From Hyalangium ruber (GTDB taxonomy: Bacteria > Myxococcota > Myxococcia > Myxococcales > Myxococcaceae): a stretch of DNA of 64,000 nucleotides. Location: assembly GCF_034259325.1 (NCBI RefSeq), contig NZ_JAXIVS010000002.1, forward strand, positions 62,001 to 126,000. The letters are read 5' to 3'. The position numbers were made by a program, and so were the translations under genes. This document shows, piece by piece, positions 25,038 to 33,958 of this stretch. The notes under the pieces are model-generated. The model did not search any database. It saw only the letters and a list, made by a program, of their open reading frames with translations, and was not told where the DNA came from. Each line of letters starts with the position of its first letter. Within the stretch, counting starts at the first letter, position 1.

Positions 25038-25823
25038 CTACTTGCGCAGGGTGCAGGACACCGGCTGTGCCATGGCGTTCTTCGCCTTCTCCACCGTGAT
25101 GAGCTCCCAGTTGGCGATCTCCGCCAGCATCAGGTCCCGGTTGCTCTTGATGAGCGGCGCGTTGTGGCACGTCCTCATGTCGTAATAGTAGTTGTAGGGC
25201 GGCAGGACGATCTGCAGCTCGGCCAGCTCCGCCAGGGAGAGCTTTTCGAGCTCCTTGCCGAACACCTTCAGCGTCACATCCTCCACGCCCACCACGCCGC
25301 GCTCGAAGCGCTGGATGGCCAGGTCATAGGCGATGAGCTGATCCTTCTGCAGGAAGGAGTGGATCTTGTGCGCCGCCACCGCCAGTTGGTACGGGTCCTT
25401 CACCCCGAGCCTGCGGGCGATGCGCATGGAGAGGATGCGCTCACAGCCGCCGTCGCCGGGAATCTGGCTGCCCATGAAGGCGCCGATGAAGAGGCGCCAG
25501 GCCCACTTCGCCCCGTCCTCGCGCGGCGTCTGGAAGTAGGTGGGGCAGCCCAGCTGGGTGATGTAGAGCGCCACCAGGTCCTTGGGCAGCCGCGTGAAGT
25601 CGGGCTTCGTGAAGGTGATGGGACGGTCCGGCTTCACGTACATGCCGGACACAAGGCTCATCCGCTCGCCTTCGATGCTGTGCTTGAGCTGCTTTTCCAC
25701 GTCGAACTCGCTGTCCATGGGAGGCAGCTTGCTCGCGGTATAGAGATAGCTCACGGGAAGCAGCACCCCGACGAGCCCCAACAGAAACAGGGTCAACCAG
25801 AAAAGAGTCCGCACGGCCTGCAA
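25038..25823 (-). CDS. Membrane-anchored GT51-like protein lacking catalytic residues
   Basis: 261 aa from a TTG at 25823; GTG 25814 is an alternative. A single N-terminal membrane helix (about 6-28) is followed by a domain that follows the order of peptidoglycan glycosyltransferase family 51. The C-terminal part VFGKELEKLSLAELAELQIVLPPYNYY matches the family pattern yFGK-LsLaEaAlLAglp-P-Y. Where active enzymes have the catalytic Glu-Asp and FyxH, this one reads YITQLGCPTYFQ, and the GGSTITQQ segment is GDGGCERILSMR. It is probably a non-enzymatic relative. It is divergent from the flavin reductase (49 nt gap). The GT51 relation is my inference. Confidence 0.6.
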   Translation of the reverse strand: MQAVRTLFWLTLFLLGLVGVLLPVSYLYTASKLPPMDSEFDVEKQLKHSIEGERMSLVSGMYVKPDRPITFTKPDFTRLPKDLVALYITQLGCPTYFQTPREDGAKWAWRLFIGAFMGSQIPGDGGCERILSMRIARRLGVKDPYQLAVAAHKIHSFLQKDQLIAYDLAIQRFERGVVGVEDVTLKVFGKELEKLSLAELAELQIVLPPYNYYYDMRTCHNAPLIKSNRDLMLAEIANWELITVEKAKNAMAQPVSCTLRK

Positions 25824-26565: not shown

Positions 26566-28164
26566 TCAGCGCTGCTCCACCGTGGGCGCGGCGTAGAGCA
26601 CCTGGTAGAGCGCGGCGGCGGGGTCACTCTCCTGGTCTCCGATGGGGTTCTGCGGCGTCCACGCGGCCACGCCCACCCAGCGCCCATCCGGGCTGTAGCG
26701 CACCCGGCGCACGGACCAGCCGAACTCCCGCTCGCCCCGCACCTTCGCGTCGCCCTCGGTGAAGAGCAGCAGCCGCTTGTCCCACCCACCCGTGGCCAGC
26801 GAGCGCCCATCCGGAGAAATGCTCGCGGTGGCCACCACGCCGCCGTGCTCGGCCCACTGCTGGAGCACCTTGCCCGTGGCGGCGTCCACCAGCGCGCCCG
26901 CGTTGGCGGGGCTCTTGGGGTCCACCTCGCCCTTCTTCTCCCGCTCGTAGATGGCGCGCGTGCGCTCCGCCTTCCCCTCGGAGAGGGCCACGCCCAGCCG
27001 CTGCCCCTTGGCGTCCACGGTGACGTCATTCACGTGGTTCTCGAAGGTGAAGTCCAAGCGAGGCTCGAGCACCAGGCCCTGCGCCTCCGCGCCCGGGACG
27101 GCGCCCGCCTTGGAGGTGAGGATGGCCTCGCCCGTGCTCTCGTCGAAGACGACGTCGAAGCGCTCGGTGAAGGGCGCGCCCAGCACGCCCTGGGTGCCAC
27201 TGGGCACGCACACGTCGCACACCGCCACGTCCACGCCCTCGACAGGCAGGGACTTGAAGCGCAGCACCTGCCCCTTCGCCAGCCGCGCCACGGTGCTGCC
27301 CAGCGGCGTGGGCACGGTGACGGTGTCCTTCAGGAAGGCCACGTCGATGCCGGCCTGGGTGGCCGCCGTGGTGTTGAGGATGACGGCCGGGGCGCGCGCG
27401 TCCAGCGCGAAGGACACCTGCGCCTTGCCGTTGACGGCGCCGCGCAGCACCACGAAGCCGCTGCGCCGCTCGAAGTGGACGCGGGCCTGGTCCGGCCGCA
27501 GCGCCTCCTCGCGGGTGTTCCAGACGCGCACGTGCTTGTCCCAACCGCCCGTGTACAGCGTGCCGTCGGCCGCGAAGGTCAGCGCGCTCACCGGGGCGTT
27601 GTTGTGGGCGCGCACCTCGAAGACGAAGCTGAGCTGCGGCACCGTGAAGACGGAGACGAGCCCCCGCGCGCTGCCCACCACGATGTAGCGCCCCGCCGGG
27701 TGGAAGGCCACCGCCGTGAGCGGCTCCTCGGTGAGCACGTGGCCCTTGGGCTCGGCGTTGGAGGCCTCGAAGAGCCGCAGCTCCCCATCCCGCCCCGCCG
27801 TGGCCAGGAGCCCGCTGTCGGCCGAGAAGGCCACCGCCTCCAGGTCGAACTCGTACGCGTTGATGTTCCGGTCGGCCACCAGCGCGGGCGTCGGGCCCAG
27901 CGTCCACAGCGCGAGCTGGTAGAACTTCGGCCCCAGGTGCGTGTACGCCACGCGTGAGCTGTCCGGCGCGAACGCGAGCGCCCAGACGAAGTCCTTGTTG
28001 TTGAGCAGCGGCCCGTCCTCGAGCCCCTTCACCTCGCCGGAGAGGTAGCCGCCAGGAGTCCCCGCCAGTCGCGAGGCCGTGTCCGGCGCGAGCCCGGGCG
28101 CATGGGCACACCCCACCGCCAGCGCCAGGACTCCGCCGAGGAGCAGCCGCGCGTGGCGCCTCAT
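26566..28164 (-). CDS. Lipoprotein: seven-bladed WD40-type propeller with retropepsin-like insert
   Basis: 532 aa. The signal peptide ends in the lipobox LAVGC (C19). Four WD40-like blades (about 58-217; for example ALTFAADGTLYTGGWDKHVRVW) precede and three (about 377-502; for example ASISPDGRSLATGGWDKRLLLF) follow an inserted domain at about 232-352. The insert looks like a retropepsin-type aspartic protease: NGKAQVSFALDARAPAVILN corresponds to the strand with D-T-G-A-S, and GVLGAPFTERFDVVFD to the later LLG-F-DvxiD element. The D-T-G triad reads D255-A256-R257. It is probably a binding platform rather than a protease. It overlaps the stop of the upstream LpoA-like gene by 4 nt, so both form an operon. 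Confidence 0.8.
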   Translation of the reverse strand: MRRHARLLLGGVLALAVGCAHAPGLAPDTASRLAGTPGGYLSGEVKGLEDGPLLNNKDFVWALAFAPDSSRVAYTHLGPKFYQLALWTLGPTPALVADRNINAYEFDLEAVAFSADSGLLATAGRDGELRLFEASNAEPKGHVLTEEPLTAVAFHPAGRYIVVGSARGLVSVFTVPQLSFVFEVRAHNNAPVSALTFAADGTLYTGGWDKHVRVWNTREEALRPDQARVHFERRSGFVVLRGAVNGKAQVSFALDARAPAVILNTTAATQAGIDVAFLKDTVTVPTPLGSTVARLAKGQVLRFKSLPVEGVDVAVCDVCVPSGTQGVLGAPFTERFDVVFDESTGEAILTSKAGAVPGAEAQGLVLEPRLDFTFENHVNDVTVDAKGQRLGVALSEGKAERTRAIYEREKKGEVDPKSPANAGALVDAATGKVLQQWAEHGGVVATASISPDGRSLATGGWDKRLLLFTEGDAKVRGEREFGWSVRRVRYSPDGRWVGVAAWTPQNPIGDQESDPAAALYQVLYAAPTVEQR

Positions 28165-30305
28165 GAGCCCGAGCCTCCCGCCGCGGTCTCCGGGGGCAGT
28201 TCCTTCACGCCCCGGTTGTCCACCGACAGCAGGAAGAGCGGCTTGACGGCCTCGCGCTTGTCATCGAACGAGGTGCGGCCCGTGGCGCCCTCGAAGTTCT
28301 TCAGGTTCACCAGCGCCTCACGCAGCTCGCCGCGGCTGCGCGGCTTCTGCTTCTCGATGATCTGCCGCAGCATCAGCGCCGAGTCATAGCCGATGGCCTC
28401 CAGCAGGCCCGGCTCCTTGTCCGTGTCCTTGTAGGCGTCGCGGAAGGCGCTGACGAACTTGCGCGTGGCCGGCCGCTGCGAGTCGATGAAGAAGCCGTCC
28501 ACGTACACCGAGCAGGTGACGAACTTGCCGCCGCGCTCCACGAGCTCCGGCAGCCCCGAGCGCCCCTTGGGGCTGCTCCACTGGTTGGTGCCCAGGAGCG
28601 TCACGGTCTTCAGGTCCTTCTTGCCCGTCGTCTTGCGGATGCGCTCCAGGTCGCGCGGGTCGCACGCGTTGGTGATGATGTCCTCCACCGCGAGCGCCGG
28701 GCCCACCAGGCTCACGCGCTTCCAGTCGTCCGGGATGAAGATGGCCTCGAAGTCCACCACCGGCTCCAGGCCGCTCTTCACCTTCTCGATGGCCTTGCGC
28801 CGCCGGAAGGCGTCCTGGTCCTGCGAGTTCACCTCGCGCACGCCCTCGATGTAGTCGAGCCGGTCTTCCAGGTAGTAGCGGCCCACCAGCTTCTTGGCCT
28901 CGGTGGTGAACGTCGTCTGGTCGTGCGCGTAGCTCTCCGCGCCGCGCACGGTGCCCCCGCGCTCCAGCACCTCGTCCCAGAAGCCGTTGGCCAGCTCCAC
29001 GCCGTAGGGGATGTTCGGGTAGAGCACCGCGAAGCGCTTGAAGCCCCGCACGTTCGTCGCGTAGTCGGCGATGGCGCGCGCCTGCGCGGAGTTGGTCAGC
29101 ATGTTGCGGAAGACATGGGGACCGATGTCGGTGATGCCCTCGGTGCGCGTCATCGTCACCAGCGGCACCTGCAGCTCCTCGGCCACCAGCGCCGCGCGCC
29201 GCGAGTCATCCGCCAGCAGCGGCCCCAGCATGGCGATGGCCCCTTCATCGAAGGCCAGCTGCTCCACCGCCTGCCCCGCCAGCGTCACCTCGCCCTGCGT
29301 GTCCTTGACGATGAGTTCGATGTCGCTGCCGGACAGCGCCAGCTGCACCCCACGCAGCACCGCCTCGCCGATGGGCTTGTAGCGCCCCGACATCGGCAGC
29401 AGCACGCCCACCGTCTTGGGCTGCACCTCCACGCGGCGCGTGGCGCGGGACAACAGCTCCTTGGCCTGCCCGGCGAAGGGGTGGTTGGGGGCCTCCTGGA
29501 GGAAGCGGTTGAGCGTCTCTTCCAGCCGCGTCCAGTCGCGCAGGTGGTAGTAGATGCGCGCCAGCTTGAAGGTGAGCACCGGCCAGGCGGGGTGGCGCGG
29601 GGACATGCCCTCCGCCACGCGGGCCACGTCCACGAAGGCCGCGCGGCCCTCCACCAGCTGCTCCACGCGGGCCACCGCCTCCGCCTGCTCCTGGGGCGTC
29701 TTCGCATCCCCCGCGAGCTGCACGGCGAGGGTGAGCGCCGGGCCGTACATGCCCGCGCCCTGCGCGGCGCGGCTGGCGTCCTCGAGCAGCTTCTCGCGCT
29801 CGGCGCCCTCGGCCCGCTCGGCGAGGCTGGACAGCGTCTGGTACGCATCCCGGTAGGCGCCCACCTCCAACGCGGACAGGGCCAGCTTACGCTTGGCGTC
29901 ATCCGCCTGCGGGTAGAGCGGGTTCTCGAAGAGCAGCTCGTTGAAGCTCTTGCGCGCGTTGGCGTAGTCCTCGGACTCGAAGTAGAGGACGCCGGCGCGG
30001 TAGAGCGCCTCCTGGCCCGCGGTGGTGCCCGGGTACGTCTTGCGCACCGTGAGCAGCGCCTCGGCCGCCTGCTTCTTGTCCGGAGCCCGGGCCGCCGTCT
30101 CGACGGCCTGGGCGAGCGCCGCGTCCGCCGCCGCGTCCTTCTTGGCCTCCACGCGGGGCTTGGTCGGGAACGGCTCCTTGTCGGGGACCCCGTCGCCACC
30201 CCTCACGGGAGTGGTCGTCTTCGGGCAGGCGGTGAGCAGCAACGCCAGCGCCAGGAACAGGGACCGGCGCAAAGGGGAGAGAACTTCCATGGTGGGCGGG
30301 TGCAT
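28161..30305 (-). CDS. LpoA-like lipoprotein: TPR-type repeats plus periplasmic binding domain
   Basis: 714 aa; ATG 30290 is an equally good start. The signal peptide ends at LLTAC. Residues about 60-290 are helical TPR/YbgF-like repeats (for example ALYRAGVLYFESEDYANARKSFNELL). From about 300 on there is a type I periplasmic-binding-protein fold (TVGVLLPMSGRYKPIGEAVLRG, AMLGPLL, DYIEGVREV, IGYDSALMLRQII). This two-part build is that of the penicillin-binding-protein activator LpoA and of amino-acid ABC receptors. It is probably anchored to the outer membrane and faces the periplasm. The WD40-retropepsin lipoprotein is coupled to it (ATGA overlap). Confidence 0.85.
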   Translation of the reverse strand: MHPPTMEVLSPLRRSLFLALALLLTACPKTTTPVRGGDGVPDKEPFPTKPRVEAKKDAAADAALAQAVETAARAPDKKQAAEALLTVRKTYPGTTAGQEALYRAGVLYFESEDYANARKSFNELLFENPLYPQADDAKRKLALSALEVGAYRDAYQTLSSLAERAEGAEREKLLEDASRAAQGAGMYGPALTLAVQLAGDAKTPQEQAEAVARVEQLVEGRAAFVDVARVAEGMSPRHPAWPVLTFKLARIYYHLRDWTRLEETLNRFLQEAPNHPFAGQAKELLSRATRRVEVQPKTVGVLLPMSGRYKPIGEAVLRGVQLALSGSDIELIVKDTQGEVTLAGQAVEQLAFDEGAIAMLGPLLADDSRRAALVAEELQVPLVTMTRTEGITDIGPHVFRNMLTNSAQARAIADYATNVRGFKRFAVLYPNIPYGVELANGFWDEVLERGGTVRGAESYAHDQTTFTTEAKKLVGRYYLEDRLDYIEGVREVNSQDQDAFRRRKAIEKVKSGLEPVVDFEAIFIPDDWKRVSLVGPALAVEDIITNACDPRDLERIRKTTGKKDLKTVTLLGTNQWSSPKGRSGLPELVERGGKFVTCSVYVDGFFIDSQRPATRKFVSAFRDAYKDTDKEPGLLEAIGYDSALMLRQIIEKQKPRSRGELREALVNLKNFEGATGRTSFDDKREAVKPLFLLSVDNRGVKELPPETAAGGSGS

Positions 30306-30475: not shown

Positions 30476-33400
30476 TCAGCTCGCCGCGACGGCCAGCGAG
30501 CGGCGCGGCTGGAGGGCCCGGCGCACCTTGGCCGCCAGCACGTCCGGGTTCACCGGGTAGGTGAGCACGTCGTCCGCCCCGGCATCGAGCCCCGCCTCCA
30601 CCAGGCCCGGATCCTCCGGCGGCGCCAGCACGAAGATGGGCAGCTCGGCGGTGGTGGCCTCGCCTCGCAGCGAGACGGTGAGCGCGGCGCCCTGGCTGTC
30701 GGGAAGGTTCGCCGCCATCACCAGCGCATGGGCACCCTGCGCCAGCAGTTGCCGGGCCCGAGCGGCCGAGTCGGCCAGCAGCACCCGCACCCCATCCGCC
30801 AGGAAGCGCGCCTGCAGGGTGGCCGAGCGCGCCGGATCCGGCTCCGCCAGCACCACGGTGTTGGAGGCGCTGTCTCCCAGCACCAGCTCGGCCACCTCGG
30901 CGGCCAGAGCCTCCAGGGCGTTGGGAGGCACCCGGCCCTCCTCGCGCAGCTTCACGAGCGCGCGCGAGGCCGCGTCCGGCGTGGGCGAGTCCGTACCGAG
31001 CACCTCCATGAGGGCCGTGGCGGCCGTCAGCGCCAGCGTGCCTCGGCCCGCGTTGGCGGCCGGGGTGTTGTCCTCGGCGCAGACGCCCACGAGGGAGGCC
31101 AGCTCGCCGGCATCCCGACCGAGCACGGCGCGCACCGCCTCGCACGAGGGCCGGGCAAAACGCTCCTTGCCCTCCAGGCGCGCCGCGCACGCGGTGGCGT
31201 ACGCCGCGGCCGAGGCCCGCTCCGCCTCCGCCCGCCCCGCTCCGAGGCGAATGGCCACGCGCCGGGCCAGCTTGGCCAATGCCGCGCCCTGCACGCCCGC
31301 GCCGCCCAGCGCCGCCAGGGCCGCGTCCAGCACCCGCGCGTGCAGCCGTGCCGCGCGTCCCAGCGGGCCCGCCTCGCCTCCGAGGGCCTCGGCCAACGAG
31401 GGCAGCACCCGCACCTCCATCGTCGGCGCCGCCGTCATCAGCCGGGCCACCAGGGCCGGCGTGTCCGTCATCGTGTCTCCCGCGATGAGGGCCACTTCGA
31501 TTCCGCCCAGCGCCACCGCGCGCTCGGCCTCGGCGCTGGAGCTGCCCGCGGCCGCCACGCCCTGCCGCGAGAAGAGGCGCACGGCCGCGTCCCGCTGCTC
31601 GGCATCATCGGCCACCACCAGCAGCGTGCGGGCCAGGGAGCGCGGCGGCGCGCGCGTGGGCATCGGCGCCGGAGCGGGCGCCTGGGGCGCGGGCTGCGCC
31701 ACGGGCTGCGGCGCGGGCTGCGGCACGAGTTGCGTGGCCGTCTGCGGCTCGGCTTGCGAATGGGAGGCGGTGAAGGCCTCCTCATCGAGGACGCGCTCGC
31801 GCGTGCGGGTGTGCTTGTCGGCGAACGGAGTAACCCCTTGCTGCACCTCCGAGGGGCTCACCTTCATCAGATTGTTCCACTCGGGCCCCACGGGGGCTTC
31901 CTCGCCCCGGTAGAAGCGACCGATGGTGCGGCGGATGGCCCCCTCGCTGGCGAGGATGCCGCGCACCGCGTAGCCCGTGCGGAACTGGAGCTCGTCCAAC
32001 CGCTCCAGGTTCTGCGGCTCGCGCATGGCGCAGATGAGCTCCTTGCCCTGCAGCGTGAGGGGCACGGCCTCGAAGCGCTCGGCGTGCTCCAGCGGCAGCA
32101 GCGACAGCAGCGGCGTGGGCACCGGCAGGGTACGCAGCTGGTGCTCGGCGATGAACGGCAGGCCGAGCTGCTCGCTGATGGCGGACACCACGTCCTCGTC
32201 CGAGACGATGCCCTCGGCCACGAGCCGCTCGCCGAGCTTGCCGCCCTCGCGCCGCTGGCGCTCGAGCATGCCCAGCAGCTGCGCCTCTGAAATCTTCCCC
32301 GCCAACAGCAGCAGCTCTCCCAGCCGGCGGCGCACCGAGGGACGCGGGCGCAGCGCGGCGAGCTGGGCGATCTGCGACGACGCGCTGCTGGAGCGCGGCG
32401 GGAGCACCGAGTGCGTGACGCCCGTGTTGACGCGGGTCGGCAGCGCGGGATGGGTGCCGGCCGAGTTGGAGCGGGTCGGCAGGGAGATGCGGCGGGAGAC
32501 CTCCACGGCGGGCTGCTGCGGGAGCGGCACCGGCGTGAGGCGTCGGCCTGGCTCCACGCCCGTCGCCATGTTCAGCGACGAGGACACGGCGGGGCGCTGG
32601 AGCTCCGGGCGTGTGTTGGTGCGGATGGCGACCGTCTTCGTCCCCACCACCGCCGAAGCGGCGACATGCTCCCGGGTTCCGCTCATCTGCGGAGGCGTCT
32701 GCATCTGCGGCACGGGCCGTGGCAGCTCCGTCCGGGTGGGGGAGCGCATGGGCAGGGCGTGACTCCCGGCCGGCGGAGAGGCGCCCTCGGCGCCCAGGCG
32801 GATCTCCTCGCCCCGGGACTCCACCGGCGCCCCGCCCTCCAGCGAAGAGCCTCGCTCCGGAAAGCAGCGCGCGAAGAGCCGGGCCACGTCCTGCGGGCCC
32901 ACGCGCAGGCGGTGGTCGAAGAGGAAGTTCTGCAGCGCGTCGGACACGTCGCGCGCGCGCTGGAAGCGGGCCACCGGGTCGGGCGCCAGGGCCCGGGCGA
33001 CGATGCTCCACAGGGGCGCGGGCACGCCCGGCACGGGCACCACCGTCTTCACATCGAAGGTGGAGATGCTGCGAAGGATCTGGAAATAGTCCGGCCCGCT
33101 GAAGAGCTGCTGGCCCGAGAGCAGCTCATAGAGGAGCAGGCCCAGCAGGAAGAGGTCCGCGCGCTGATCCACCGCGCCACCGCGCACCTGCTCGGGGGCG
33201 AGGTAGCCCACCTTGCCCTTCACCACGCCCACCTGGGTGCCGCTCTGGACGTTGGCGGCCTTGGCGATGCCGAAGTCGGCGAGCTTCACCTCGCCGGAGA
33301 CAGCGACCATCACGTTGGAGGGGTTGATGTCGCGGTGGATGATGTTGAGCGGCCGGCCGGCCGAATCGAGCTTCTCGTGGGCGTAGGCGAGGCCCTCGGC

Positions 33401-33754
33401 CACCTGCTGGACGATGAAGCACACCTCGCGCAGGCCCATGGGCACCTGCTGGGCGGCGGCGGCCCGCTGGAGGGCGCGGAGGTTCTCTCCGTCCACGAAC
33501 TCCATCACCATGTAGTACTGGCCGCGCGAGCAGCCGAGATCGAACACCTGGACGACGTTGGCGTGCTGCAGCGAGACGGTGAGCTTGGCCTCGCGAAGGA
33601 ACAGCTCGACGAACTCCTGGTCCTGCACGAGCGAGGGCAGGATGCGCTTGACGGCGACAGGCTTCTCGAAGCCCTCGGCTCCGACAACCTTCGCCAGAAA
33701 AACTTCCGCCATGCCGCCCGCGGCCAGCTTGCGGACGAGTCGGTACGTGGCCAC
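30476..33754 (-). CDS. Ser/Thr kinase fused to GspE/MshE N-terminal domain and pseudo-receivers
   Basis: 1092 aa from a GTG with GGGGGAG 5 nt upstream. The kinase domain covers 1-280: glycine loop AAGGMAE, K36, HRDINPSN (140-147, with Asn-Pro in place of the usual Lys-Pro), DFG (160-162), GKVGYLAPEQ. A disordered linker (300-470) follows. Residues 475-615 are a GspE_N/MshEN domain with two tandem motifs, RRLGELLLLAGKISEAQLLG...ERQ and KLGERLVAEGIVSDEDV, the pattern that binds c-di-GMP in MshE. A Pro/Gln linker leads to two receiver-like domains (about 706-785 and 965-1085). In the second, the phosphoacceptor position is A1014 (VMAANLP) and the usual Lys is Tyr (LTYPV). The construction suggests a kinase tuned by c-di-GMP; this is an inference. 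Confidence 0.85.
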   Translation of the reverse strand: MATYRLVRKLAAGGMAEVFLAKVVGAEGFEKPVAVKRILPSLVQDQEFVELFLREAKLTVSLQHANVVQVFDLGCSRGQYYMVMEFVDGENLRALQRAAAAQQVPMGLREVCFIVQQVAEGLAYAHEKLDSAGRPLNIIHRDINPSNVMVAVSGEVKLADFGIAKAANVQSGTQVGVVKGKVGYLAPEQVRGGAVDQRADLFLLGLLLYELLSGQQLFSGPDYFQILRSISTFDVKTVVPVPGVPAPLWSIVARALAPDPVARFQRARDVSDALQNFLFDHRLRVGPQDVARLFARCFPERGSSLEGGAPVESRGEEIRLGAEGASPPAGSHALPMRSPTRTELPRPVPQMQTPPQMSGTREHVAASAVVGTKTVAIRTNTRPELQRPAVSSSLNMATGVEPGRRLTPVPLPQQPAVEVSRRISLPTRSNSAGTHPALPTRVNTGVTHSVLPPRSSSASSQIAQLAALRPRPSVRRRLGELLLLAGKISEAQLLGMLERQRREGGKLGERLVAEGIVSDEDVVSAISEQLGLPFIAEHQLRTLPVPTPLLSLLPLEHAERFEAVPLTLQGKELICAMREPQNLERLDELQFRTGYAVRGILASEGAIRRTIGRFYRGEEAPVGPEWNNLMKVSPSEVQQGVTPFADKHTRTRERVLDEEAFTASHSQAEPQTATQLVPQPAPQPVAQPAPQAPAPAPMPTRAPPRSLARTLLVVADDAEQRDAAVRLFSRQGVAAAGSSSAEAERAVALGGIEVALIAGDTMTDTPALVARLMTAAPTMEVRVLPSLAEALGGEAGPLGRAARLHARVLDAALAALGGAGVQGAALAKLARRVAIRLGAGRAEAERASAAAYATACAARLEGKERFARPSCEAVRAVLGRDAGELASLVGVCAEDNTPAANAGRGTLALTAATALMEVLGTDSPTPDAASRALVKLREEGRVPPNALEALAAEVAELVLGDSASNTVVLAEPDPARSATLQARFLADGVRVLLADSAARARQLLAQGAHALVMAANLPDSQGAALTVSLRGEATTAELPIFVLAPPEDPGLVEAGLDAGADDVLTYPVNPDVLAAKVRRALQPRRSLAVAAS

Positions 33755-33958
33755 GTGAACTCCCCCAACCCGCTGTGGTGGGGGCCTTGATGTGCATGGC
33801 CGCGCCGGAAGGTGAGTGCCCCCAGGCGTCGATCTCTTGGAACGTCGAGTCGCTGGCACTCGGGGCCGGACAGTCCGCCGGGAAGCGTCGGAGGCTGAGC
33901 AAGCACACGCCCACCGCACAGGTAGGCGTCTCTACACCGAGGTATTCACGGCGCGGCG

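Follow-up and report, generated by a model that had tools for sequence, protein, structure and literature searches.

We describe a putative bacterial lipoprotein in which, according to structure prediction, a complete single-lobe retropepsin fold is nested inside blade 4 of a seven-bladed WD40 propeller, and in which, by alignment, the catalytic D-T/S-G loop of that fold has been swapped for a D-x-R motif kept across two classes of Myxococcota. The gene lies on the reverse strand of the window, i.e. the whole 64,000-nucleotide stretch of DNA analysed here. Judged from its sequence, the inserted domain is probably a former protease that now serves something else. The preliminary description of this DNA held such an architecture to be undescribed, and our searches of the open-access literature, made in one collection, likewise gave no precedent for a pseudoprotease of retropepsin fold set within a blade of a propeller. 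The same arrangement is found in 91 genomes and is thus not a chance occurrence. Beyond that description, the present analysis gives the exact place of the insert in blade 4, the conservation of D-x-R across two classes, a C-x-x-C motif, relatives of the D-T-G type, a natural version of the protein without the insert, and a gene pair. The features, in window coordinates, are:

26566..28164, reverse strand: whole gene, 532-residue putative lipoprotein, WD40 propeller of seven blades plus retropepsin-fold insert (open reading frame, profiles, model)
28108..28164, reverse strand: signal peptide and lipobox Cys19 (L-A-V-G-C), a lipoprotein signal read by eye
27499..28032, reverse strand: residues 45-222, the strand that closes blade 7 (45-55), then blades 1-3 and strands one to three of blade 4 (blades assigned by reading the strand list of the model)
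27112..27489, reverse strand: predicted retropepsin-fold insert, residues 226-351, in blade 4 (Pfam, models, Foldseek; limits approximate)
27394..27402, reverse strand: D255-A256-R257, at the place of retropepsin D-T/S-G (aligned to the D-T-G of APRc)
27208..27219, reverse strand: C316-D-V-C319, the C-x-x-C motif (alignment)
27178..27189, reverse strand: G326-V-L-G329, the hydrophobic-hydrophobic-Gly element, named after a description of such an element in PMC4140852
26593..27084, reverse strand: residues 361-524, comprising the outer blade-4 strand, blades 5 and 6, and three blade-7 strands
28161..30305, reverse strand: directly upstream gene, 714-residue lipoprotein with TPR and type I periplasmic-binding-protein fold, LpoA-like (profiles)

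A retropepsin-fold insert in a WD40 propeller

The open reading frame starts with ATG and contains no internal stop; it belongs to a genome of 10.77 Mb in 43 contigs, and the nearest named relative of its product is a protein of Hyalangium versicolor (78% identity). Its N-terminus carries a signal peptide with a lipobox cysteine, from which lipidation is putatively assigned. Of 48 aligned rows, 46 have a cysteine in the lipobox column and two (L048 and L073) are fragments that start downstream of it; the residue after the cysteine varies among A, R, K, G, Q, V and T, with Asp in none of the rows.

The WD40 family of Pfam (PF00400; cut-off 27) matches four stretches of the protein, with a score of 97.8 bits. 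An AlphaFold2 model built with 34 orthologues (mean pLDDT 90.0, pTM 0.86) superposes on the designed seven-blade propeller 7big_A over 281 of 286 residues (rmsd 2.0 Å, Z 37.1) and on the prokaryotic propeller 5yzv_C over 285 of 290 residues (rmsd 1.9 Å, Z 37.0), the superposition of PDB propellers spanning model residues 47-523. The blades before and after the insert are therefore predicted to close into a single seven-bladed propeller, and these superpositions rule out a propeller that fails to close. In the strand list of the model, read together with the WD40 pattern, the strands of blade 4 are formed by residues 192-197, 203-207 and 211-222 and, after the insert, 361-373, while the N-terminal strand 45-55 completes blade 7. 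Because of this strand order, the insert is placed inside blade 4 of the model, after strand three (211-222) and ahead of strand four, the outer one (361-373). An insertion between blades 4 and 5 is ruled out by the same order of predicted strands.

That the insert has a retropepsin fold is indicated by profiles and by structure comparison. Asp_protease_2 (PF13650) matches residues 242-332 with 31.4 bits, above its curated cut-off of 24.3; the related gag-asp_proteas (PF13975; 24.7 bits, cut-off 28.2) and the clan AA aspartic protease family TIGR02281 (29.3 bits, cut-off 57.95) match below theirs. When a profile of 24 inserts was compared to all PDB chain sequences, the best matches were to the Rickettsia protease APRc (E 0.0029 and 0.0032), whose D-T-G was aligned over D-A-R; the remaining two matches listed (E 0.33 and 0.86) appear unrelated. 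Residues 226-351 modelled alone gave a pLDDT of 91.2 and a pTM of 0.84. With this model, 42 PDB chains passed E ≤ 0.001 in Foldseek; their titles identify them as retropepsins, Ddi1-type or pepsin-type aspartic proteases, with the exception of 4ehc, whose title is uninformative. The best solved match is 5c9f_A, which is APRc (Foldseek E 2.7e-7, TM 0.70; Z 12.8, rmsd 3.1, 120 residues aligned). These matches rule out an unrelated fold, and in the model the insert forms a complete single-lobe retropepsin fold.

The preliminary description had read this gene as a WD40-type propeller lipoprotein with a retropepsin-like insert at residues 232-352, flanked by four blades and three. The propeller lipoprotein, its closure as one propeller, the retropepsin fold and the nesting of the insert all stand, with limits close to the ~226-351 found here; the position between blades does not, and has to be moved to the inside of blade 4.

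Whole-protein profile matches at E ≤ 1e-30 were obtained in 93 of the 195 genomes of the phylum, of which 91 have the insert and two do not. By family, 88 belong to f1-f3 (86, 1 and 1, respectively) and three to f25, a family outside the class of the window, the two insertless ones completing the set. The f25 proteins score 205-350 bits with the profile, as orthologues of full length (BLAST identity 29-31%), one of them, L195, being cut by the contig end. At the same threshold, the profile search did not find the gene in eight f1 genomes (G005, G006, G013, G019, G020, G024, G026 and G092), among which G092 and some others are incomplete assemblies. A record titled Comamonas sp. KCTC 72670 (L077) groups with Myxococcus in the propeller tree and is probably mislabelled or contaminated.

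The two genomes whose propeller is without the insert and joined directly (G033 and G140) belong to one genus, g20, and are 2.1-2.3 Mb in size. In the insertless sequences L031, L075 and L076, the third strand of blade 4 leads straight into the fourth. Loss of the insert in this genus, rather than gain elsewhere, is favoured from the sequences, the one ground being that insert-bearing orthologues also exist in f2, in f3 and, outside the class, in f25. A propeller-only tree, from which L073 was left out, has the two insertless sequences beside L068 (support 81/70) on a stem of 1.24 changes per column; it does not place this pair, hence gain or loss is not read from it.

Replacement of the catalytic motif

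At the place of the D-T/S-G loop, the protein of the window reads D255-A256-R257, as the preliminary description had noted. Asp is present at position 255 in all 91 insert-bearing genomes, the triad being D-x-R in 90 and D-A-A in one, and D-T-G or D-S-G occurs in none of the 91. The motif is thus kept by no homologue of this set, which is in line with the earlier judgement that the domain is "probably inactive". Within f1-f3, Asp is found in 88 of 88 genomes, C-[DE]-x-C in 88 of 88 and D-x-R in 87 of 88 (D-A-A in the other), with the triads DAR (49), DSR (19), DTR (6), DGR (5), DER (3), DQR (2) and DLR, DNR and DKR (1 each). The three f25 inserts have DTR, DAR and DQR together with CDDC, CDSC and CDEC.

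The second motif, C-[DE]-x-C, is present in 91 of 91 insert-bearing genomes and stands just ahead of the hydrophobic-hydrophobic-Gly element, whose Gly329 is found in 46 of 46 aligned sequences; Gly289 is conserved in the aligned inserts as well. Over 45 aligned insert-bearing rows, which include two f25 proteins and leave out the fragments L073, L048, L052 and L195 and the insertless L075 and L076, conservation reaches 97% or more at eight of the 126 positions of the insert (255, 257, 289, 316, 319, 329, 341 and 346), a smaller share than the 45 of 342 in the propeller. In conservation the insert does not surpass the propeller, but half of its constant positions (D255, R257, C316 and C319) are the two motifs. 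Since D-x-R (90/91) and C-[DE]-x-C (91/91) are kept instead, the loss of D-T/S-G would not be random decay; it looks rather as if a different conserved site had taken the place of a protease site.

Mean pairwise identity is the same for the insert as for blades 1-4 (47.5% in both), these means being taken without the fragments L027, L029 and L030 and the insertless L031. Over seven pairs, dN/dS ranges from 0.07 to 0.43 for the insert, from 0.11 to 0.43 for blades 5-7 and from 0.21 to 0.99 for blades 1-4, the high values of the last being 0.99 for L002/L003 and 0.74 for L010/L012; the ratios are noisy.

We also compared the insert to other retropepsin-like proteins of the phylum. In a tree of the domain, 19 of 19 inserts fall on one side of a branch (support 93/83) and 20 other retropepsins on the other, a grouping apart that is suggestive only. 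Four proteins (L145, L146, L199 and L200) share the fold with the insert by profile and have C-x-x-C at the same alignment place; they differ in that they keep D-T-G, have no propeller, and have N-termini that are membrane or TPR-like by eye. As these D-T-G proteins also have it, C-x-x-C is not peculiar to the dead domain, whereas D-x-R and the nesting are. L199 and L200, which read C-D-x-C, are possible free-standing active counterparts of the insert. Fourteen retropepsin-like proteins labelled, by reading, as TPR-type have no C-x-x-C at that place, and D-T-G is present in nine of them. The other five of the 14, free-standing proteins beside relatives with D-T-G, have altered triads: L148 (DTL), L149 and L150 (DTD), L154 (DGD) and L156 (DER), a repeated loss of the catalytic motif. 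The second PF13650 match in the genome of the window is a separate D-T-G protein (G000:C1:85398); its sequence, L113 (G000:C1:85398-85724), shows by eye a pair of D-T-G lobes and, after them, a PDZ-like stretch.

The gene pair and the proposed role of the insert

The LpoA-like gene overlaps the start of the propeller gene by 4 bases (ATGA, 28161-28164). Its product matches Peripla_BP_6 with 135.1 bits and LppC (PF04348) with 34.4 bits, against a cut-off of 28.8 for the latter, and among PDB sequences it is matched best by branched-chain amino-acid binding proteins. A homologue is the next gene upstream on the same strand in all 43 named loci with upstream DNA; these are 43 of 47 named loci, the other four (L046, L048, L052 and L073) having no upstream gene in the sequence. 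Gaps are at most 229 bases and the 4-base overlap recurs in 21 of the 43, a range from which the spacing of L065 is left out, its upstream reading frame extending 409 bases beyond the start of the propeller gene. The two genes are ~3 kb apart in G001. No LpoA-like gene was found in the 7-kb stretches around two f25 propeller genes, the f25 genomes having one elsewhere, and the partner is not obligatory for the propeller gene. The LpoA-like gene is present in 179 of the 195 phylum genomes (E ≤ 1e-20), compared to 93 for the propeller; being far commoner, it makes the propeller at most an accessory of the LpoA-like protein. Myxococcus xanthus strain AM003 carries the gene pair (L053). A preprint describes M. 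xanthus as being without LpoA/B homologues (PMC12132463); the weak LppC match of the neighbour does not overturn this statement, but merits attention.

Two further genes of the neighbourhood were annotated, both on the reverse strand. The 261-residue product of the gene at 25038-25823 weakly resembles the glycosyltransferase region of PBP1A-type proteins, chiefly in its C-terminal half (PF00912 25.7 bits, under the cut-off of 27; TIGR02074 31.4 bits, far under its cut-off). It is possibly a degenerate transglycosylase, and its gene is kept near the propeller gene in many relatives. The gene at 30476-33919 encodes 1147 residues that combine a Ser/Thr kinase domain with a receiver domain and a c-di-GMP-binding domain of the MshEN kind.

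The reading that we prefer, with a probability of about 0.5, is that the insert is a pseudoprotease with a ligand-holding cleft, and that the propeller lipoprotein works as an accessory adaptor in an envelope complex that includes its LpoA-like neighbour. An intact D-T/S-G loop is required for retropepsin activity. Because retropepsins need two subunits, each with the Asp of D-T-G, and the loop is here altered and the domain tethered in a propeller, cleavage of peptides would be unlikely. The retained cleft may instead form a binding site to which D255, R257 and the C316/C319 pair are central; the two cysteines would most likely be joined by a disulfide in the periplasm. A peptide or protein bound there would be held but not cut. 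The propeller would be the constant part. Its C-terminal part has two conserved loops, 398-418 (K-A-E-R-T-x-x-x-Y-x-x-E-K) and 500-517 (A-A-W-T-P-Q), and R401, E409 and W502-T503-P504 are kept in both insertless proteins (G033 and G140); since these loops of blades 5 and 7 remain where the insert is gone, they may form the common functional site, to which the insert would add a second one. In WD40 propellers, the loops between third and fourth strands and those between second and third strands lie on opposite faces; the two sites would thus be predicted on opposite sides of the protein. As the propeller lipoprotein would be made together with the upstream LpoA-like lipoprotein in the main lineage, the likeliest job of the former is that of an adaptor in an envelope complex with the latter. 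Several observations count against this reading: the insert has proportionally fewer strictly conserved positions than the propeller, and an Asp kept in 91 of 91 genomes is also what an active enzyme would be expected to give. Against the partner stand the f25 and G001 loci, the much wider spread of the LpoA-like gene and, for its identity as a true LpoA, the PDB sequences that match its product best.

More tentatively, and with clear doubt on our part, one may propose that the retropepsin site was rebuilt to D-x-R and C-[DE]-x-C well ahead of the separation of the myxobacterial classes, giving a ligand-, redox- or metal-responsive module carried in a blade, with the propeller and the former cleft contacting different partners.

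Among the alternatives, the one that survives best, although we hold it to be unlikely, is a rebuilt non-proteolytic active or sensing site made jointly of D-x-R and C-[DE]-x-C, e.g. a redox-switchable thiol/disulfide, metal or small-ligand site, so that the domain would be a sensor or a new kind of enzyme rather than a passive binder. It accords with the two motifs being the best kept part of the insert, with the C-x-x-C pair and the lipobox cysteine being the only cysteines from the lipobox on, i.e. of the mature protein, in 17 of 27 sequences, and with C-x-x-C either predating the loss of D-T-G or having no link to it, as the presence of C-x-x-C in L145, L146, L199 and L200 indicates. A plain structural disulfide would, however, account for the cysteines equally well, and L156 has D-E-R without C-x-x-C, so the motifs are not always linked.

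Propeller lipoproteins act as scaffolds in the BAM complex. With this precedent, and with an upstream protein whose N-terminus gives matches under the cut-offs to YbgF (41.2 bits) and BamD (35.1 bits), the present propeller could be a BamB-like scaffold in outer-membrane protein assembly rather than in cell-wall synthesis. We consider this improbable: profile searches of the protein gave no BamB family match, the fold is WD40, and the gene is missing from 100 of the 195 phylum genomes (102 of 195 being without a match at E ≤ 1e-30), which would be odd for a core assembly factor.

Still less probable is an active aspartic protease, in which two membrane lipoproteins would dimerise via their inserts so that two Asp255 share one active site and D-x-R is tolerated. 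The invariant Asp, the conserved Gly289 and Gly329 and the completeness of the predicted fold speak for it; the Gly of D-T/S-G, a motif established as needed for activity, is Arg in 90 of 91 inserts and Ala in one. Retropepsins are described as working as dimers in which each subunit gives one Asp (PMC4140852), and the same source reports that APRc, a D-T-G enzyme, is active, accumulates in dimeric form and needs the dimer, and that mutation of its catalytic Asp abolishes autolysis. Finally, a non-functional relic, i.e. a decayed protease left as a tolerated loop, would suit the two genomes that lack the insert and retain the propeller as well as the varied motif loss among the relatives, but such plain decay is rejected, with hardly any probability left to it, on the identity shared with blades 1-4, on the dN/dS of the insert and on the replaced motif itself being kept across two classes.

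Comparison with known systems

Pseudoproteases are known in several protease classes. The phylum offers unusually good material for testing how a protease fold is refunctioned, with D-T-G relatives that have C-x-x-C, 91 genomes in which the motif is replaced, a free-standing series of motif loss and a natural deletion of the insert; the envelope gene pair is present in cultured model myxobacteria, where it is open to testing by gene removal.

For the propeller, the closest systems are the bacterial seven-bladed WD40 propellers of PDB 5yzv and 2ymu and the designed 7big, the likeness covering the whole propeller (1.9-2.0 Å over 281-285 residues); unlike in the present protein, the chain lengths of 5yzv_C (290) and 7big_A (286) leave no room for a retropepsin fold in blade 4. 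For the insert, the Asp_protease_2 family (PF13650) takes it in above its cut-off, but members of PF13650 and TIGR02281 differ from it, the insert being without D-T/S-G, nested in another domain and under the TIGR02281 cut-off. The Rlo peptidases of Pseudomonas aeruginosa, reported to be retropepsin-like and active and to have signal peptides (PMC12239564), can be set beside it by their description: both are bacterial, retropepsin-like and provided with a signal peptide, whereas Rlo peptidases are free-standing and active. The best match by both sequence and structure is APRc (RC1339) of Rickettsia (PDB 5c9f, 5c9b and 5c9d), which shares the single-lobe retropepsin fold but is embedded in the membrane, with no propeller around it.
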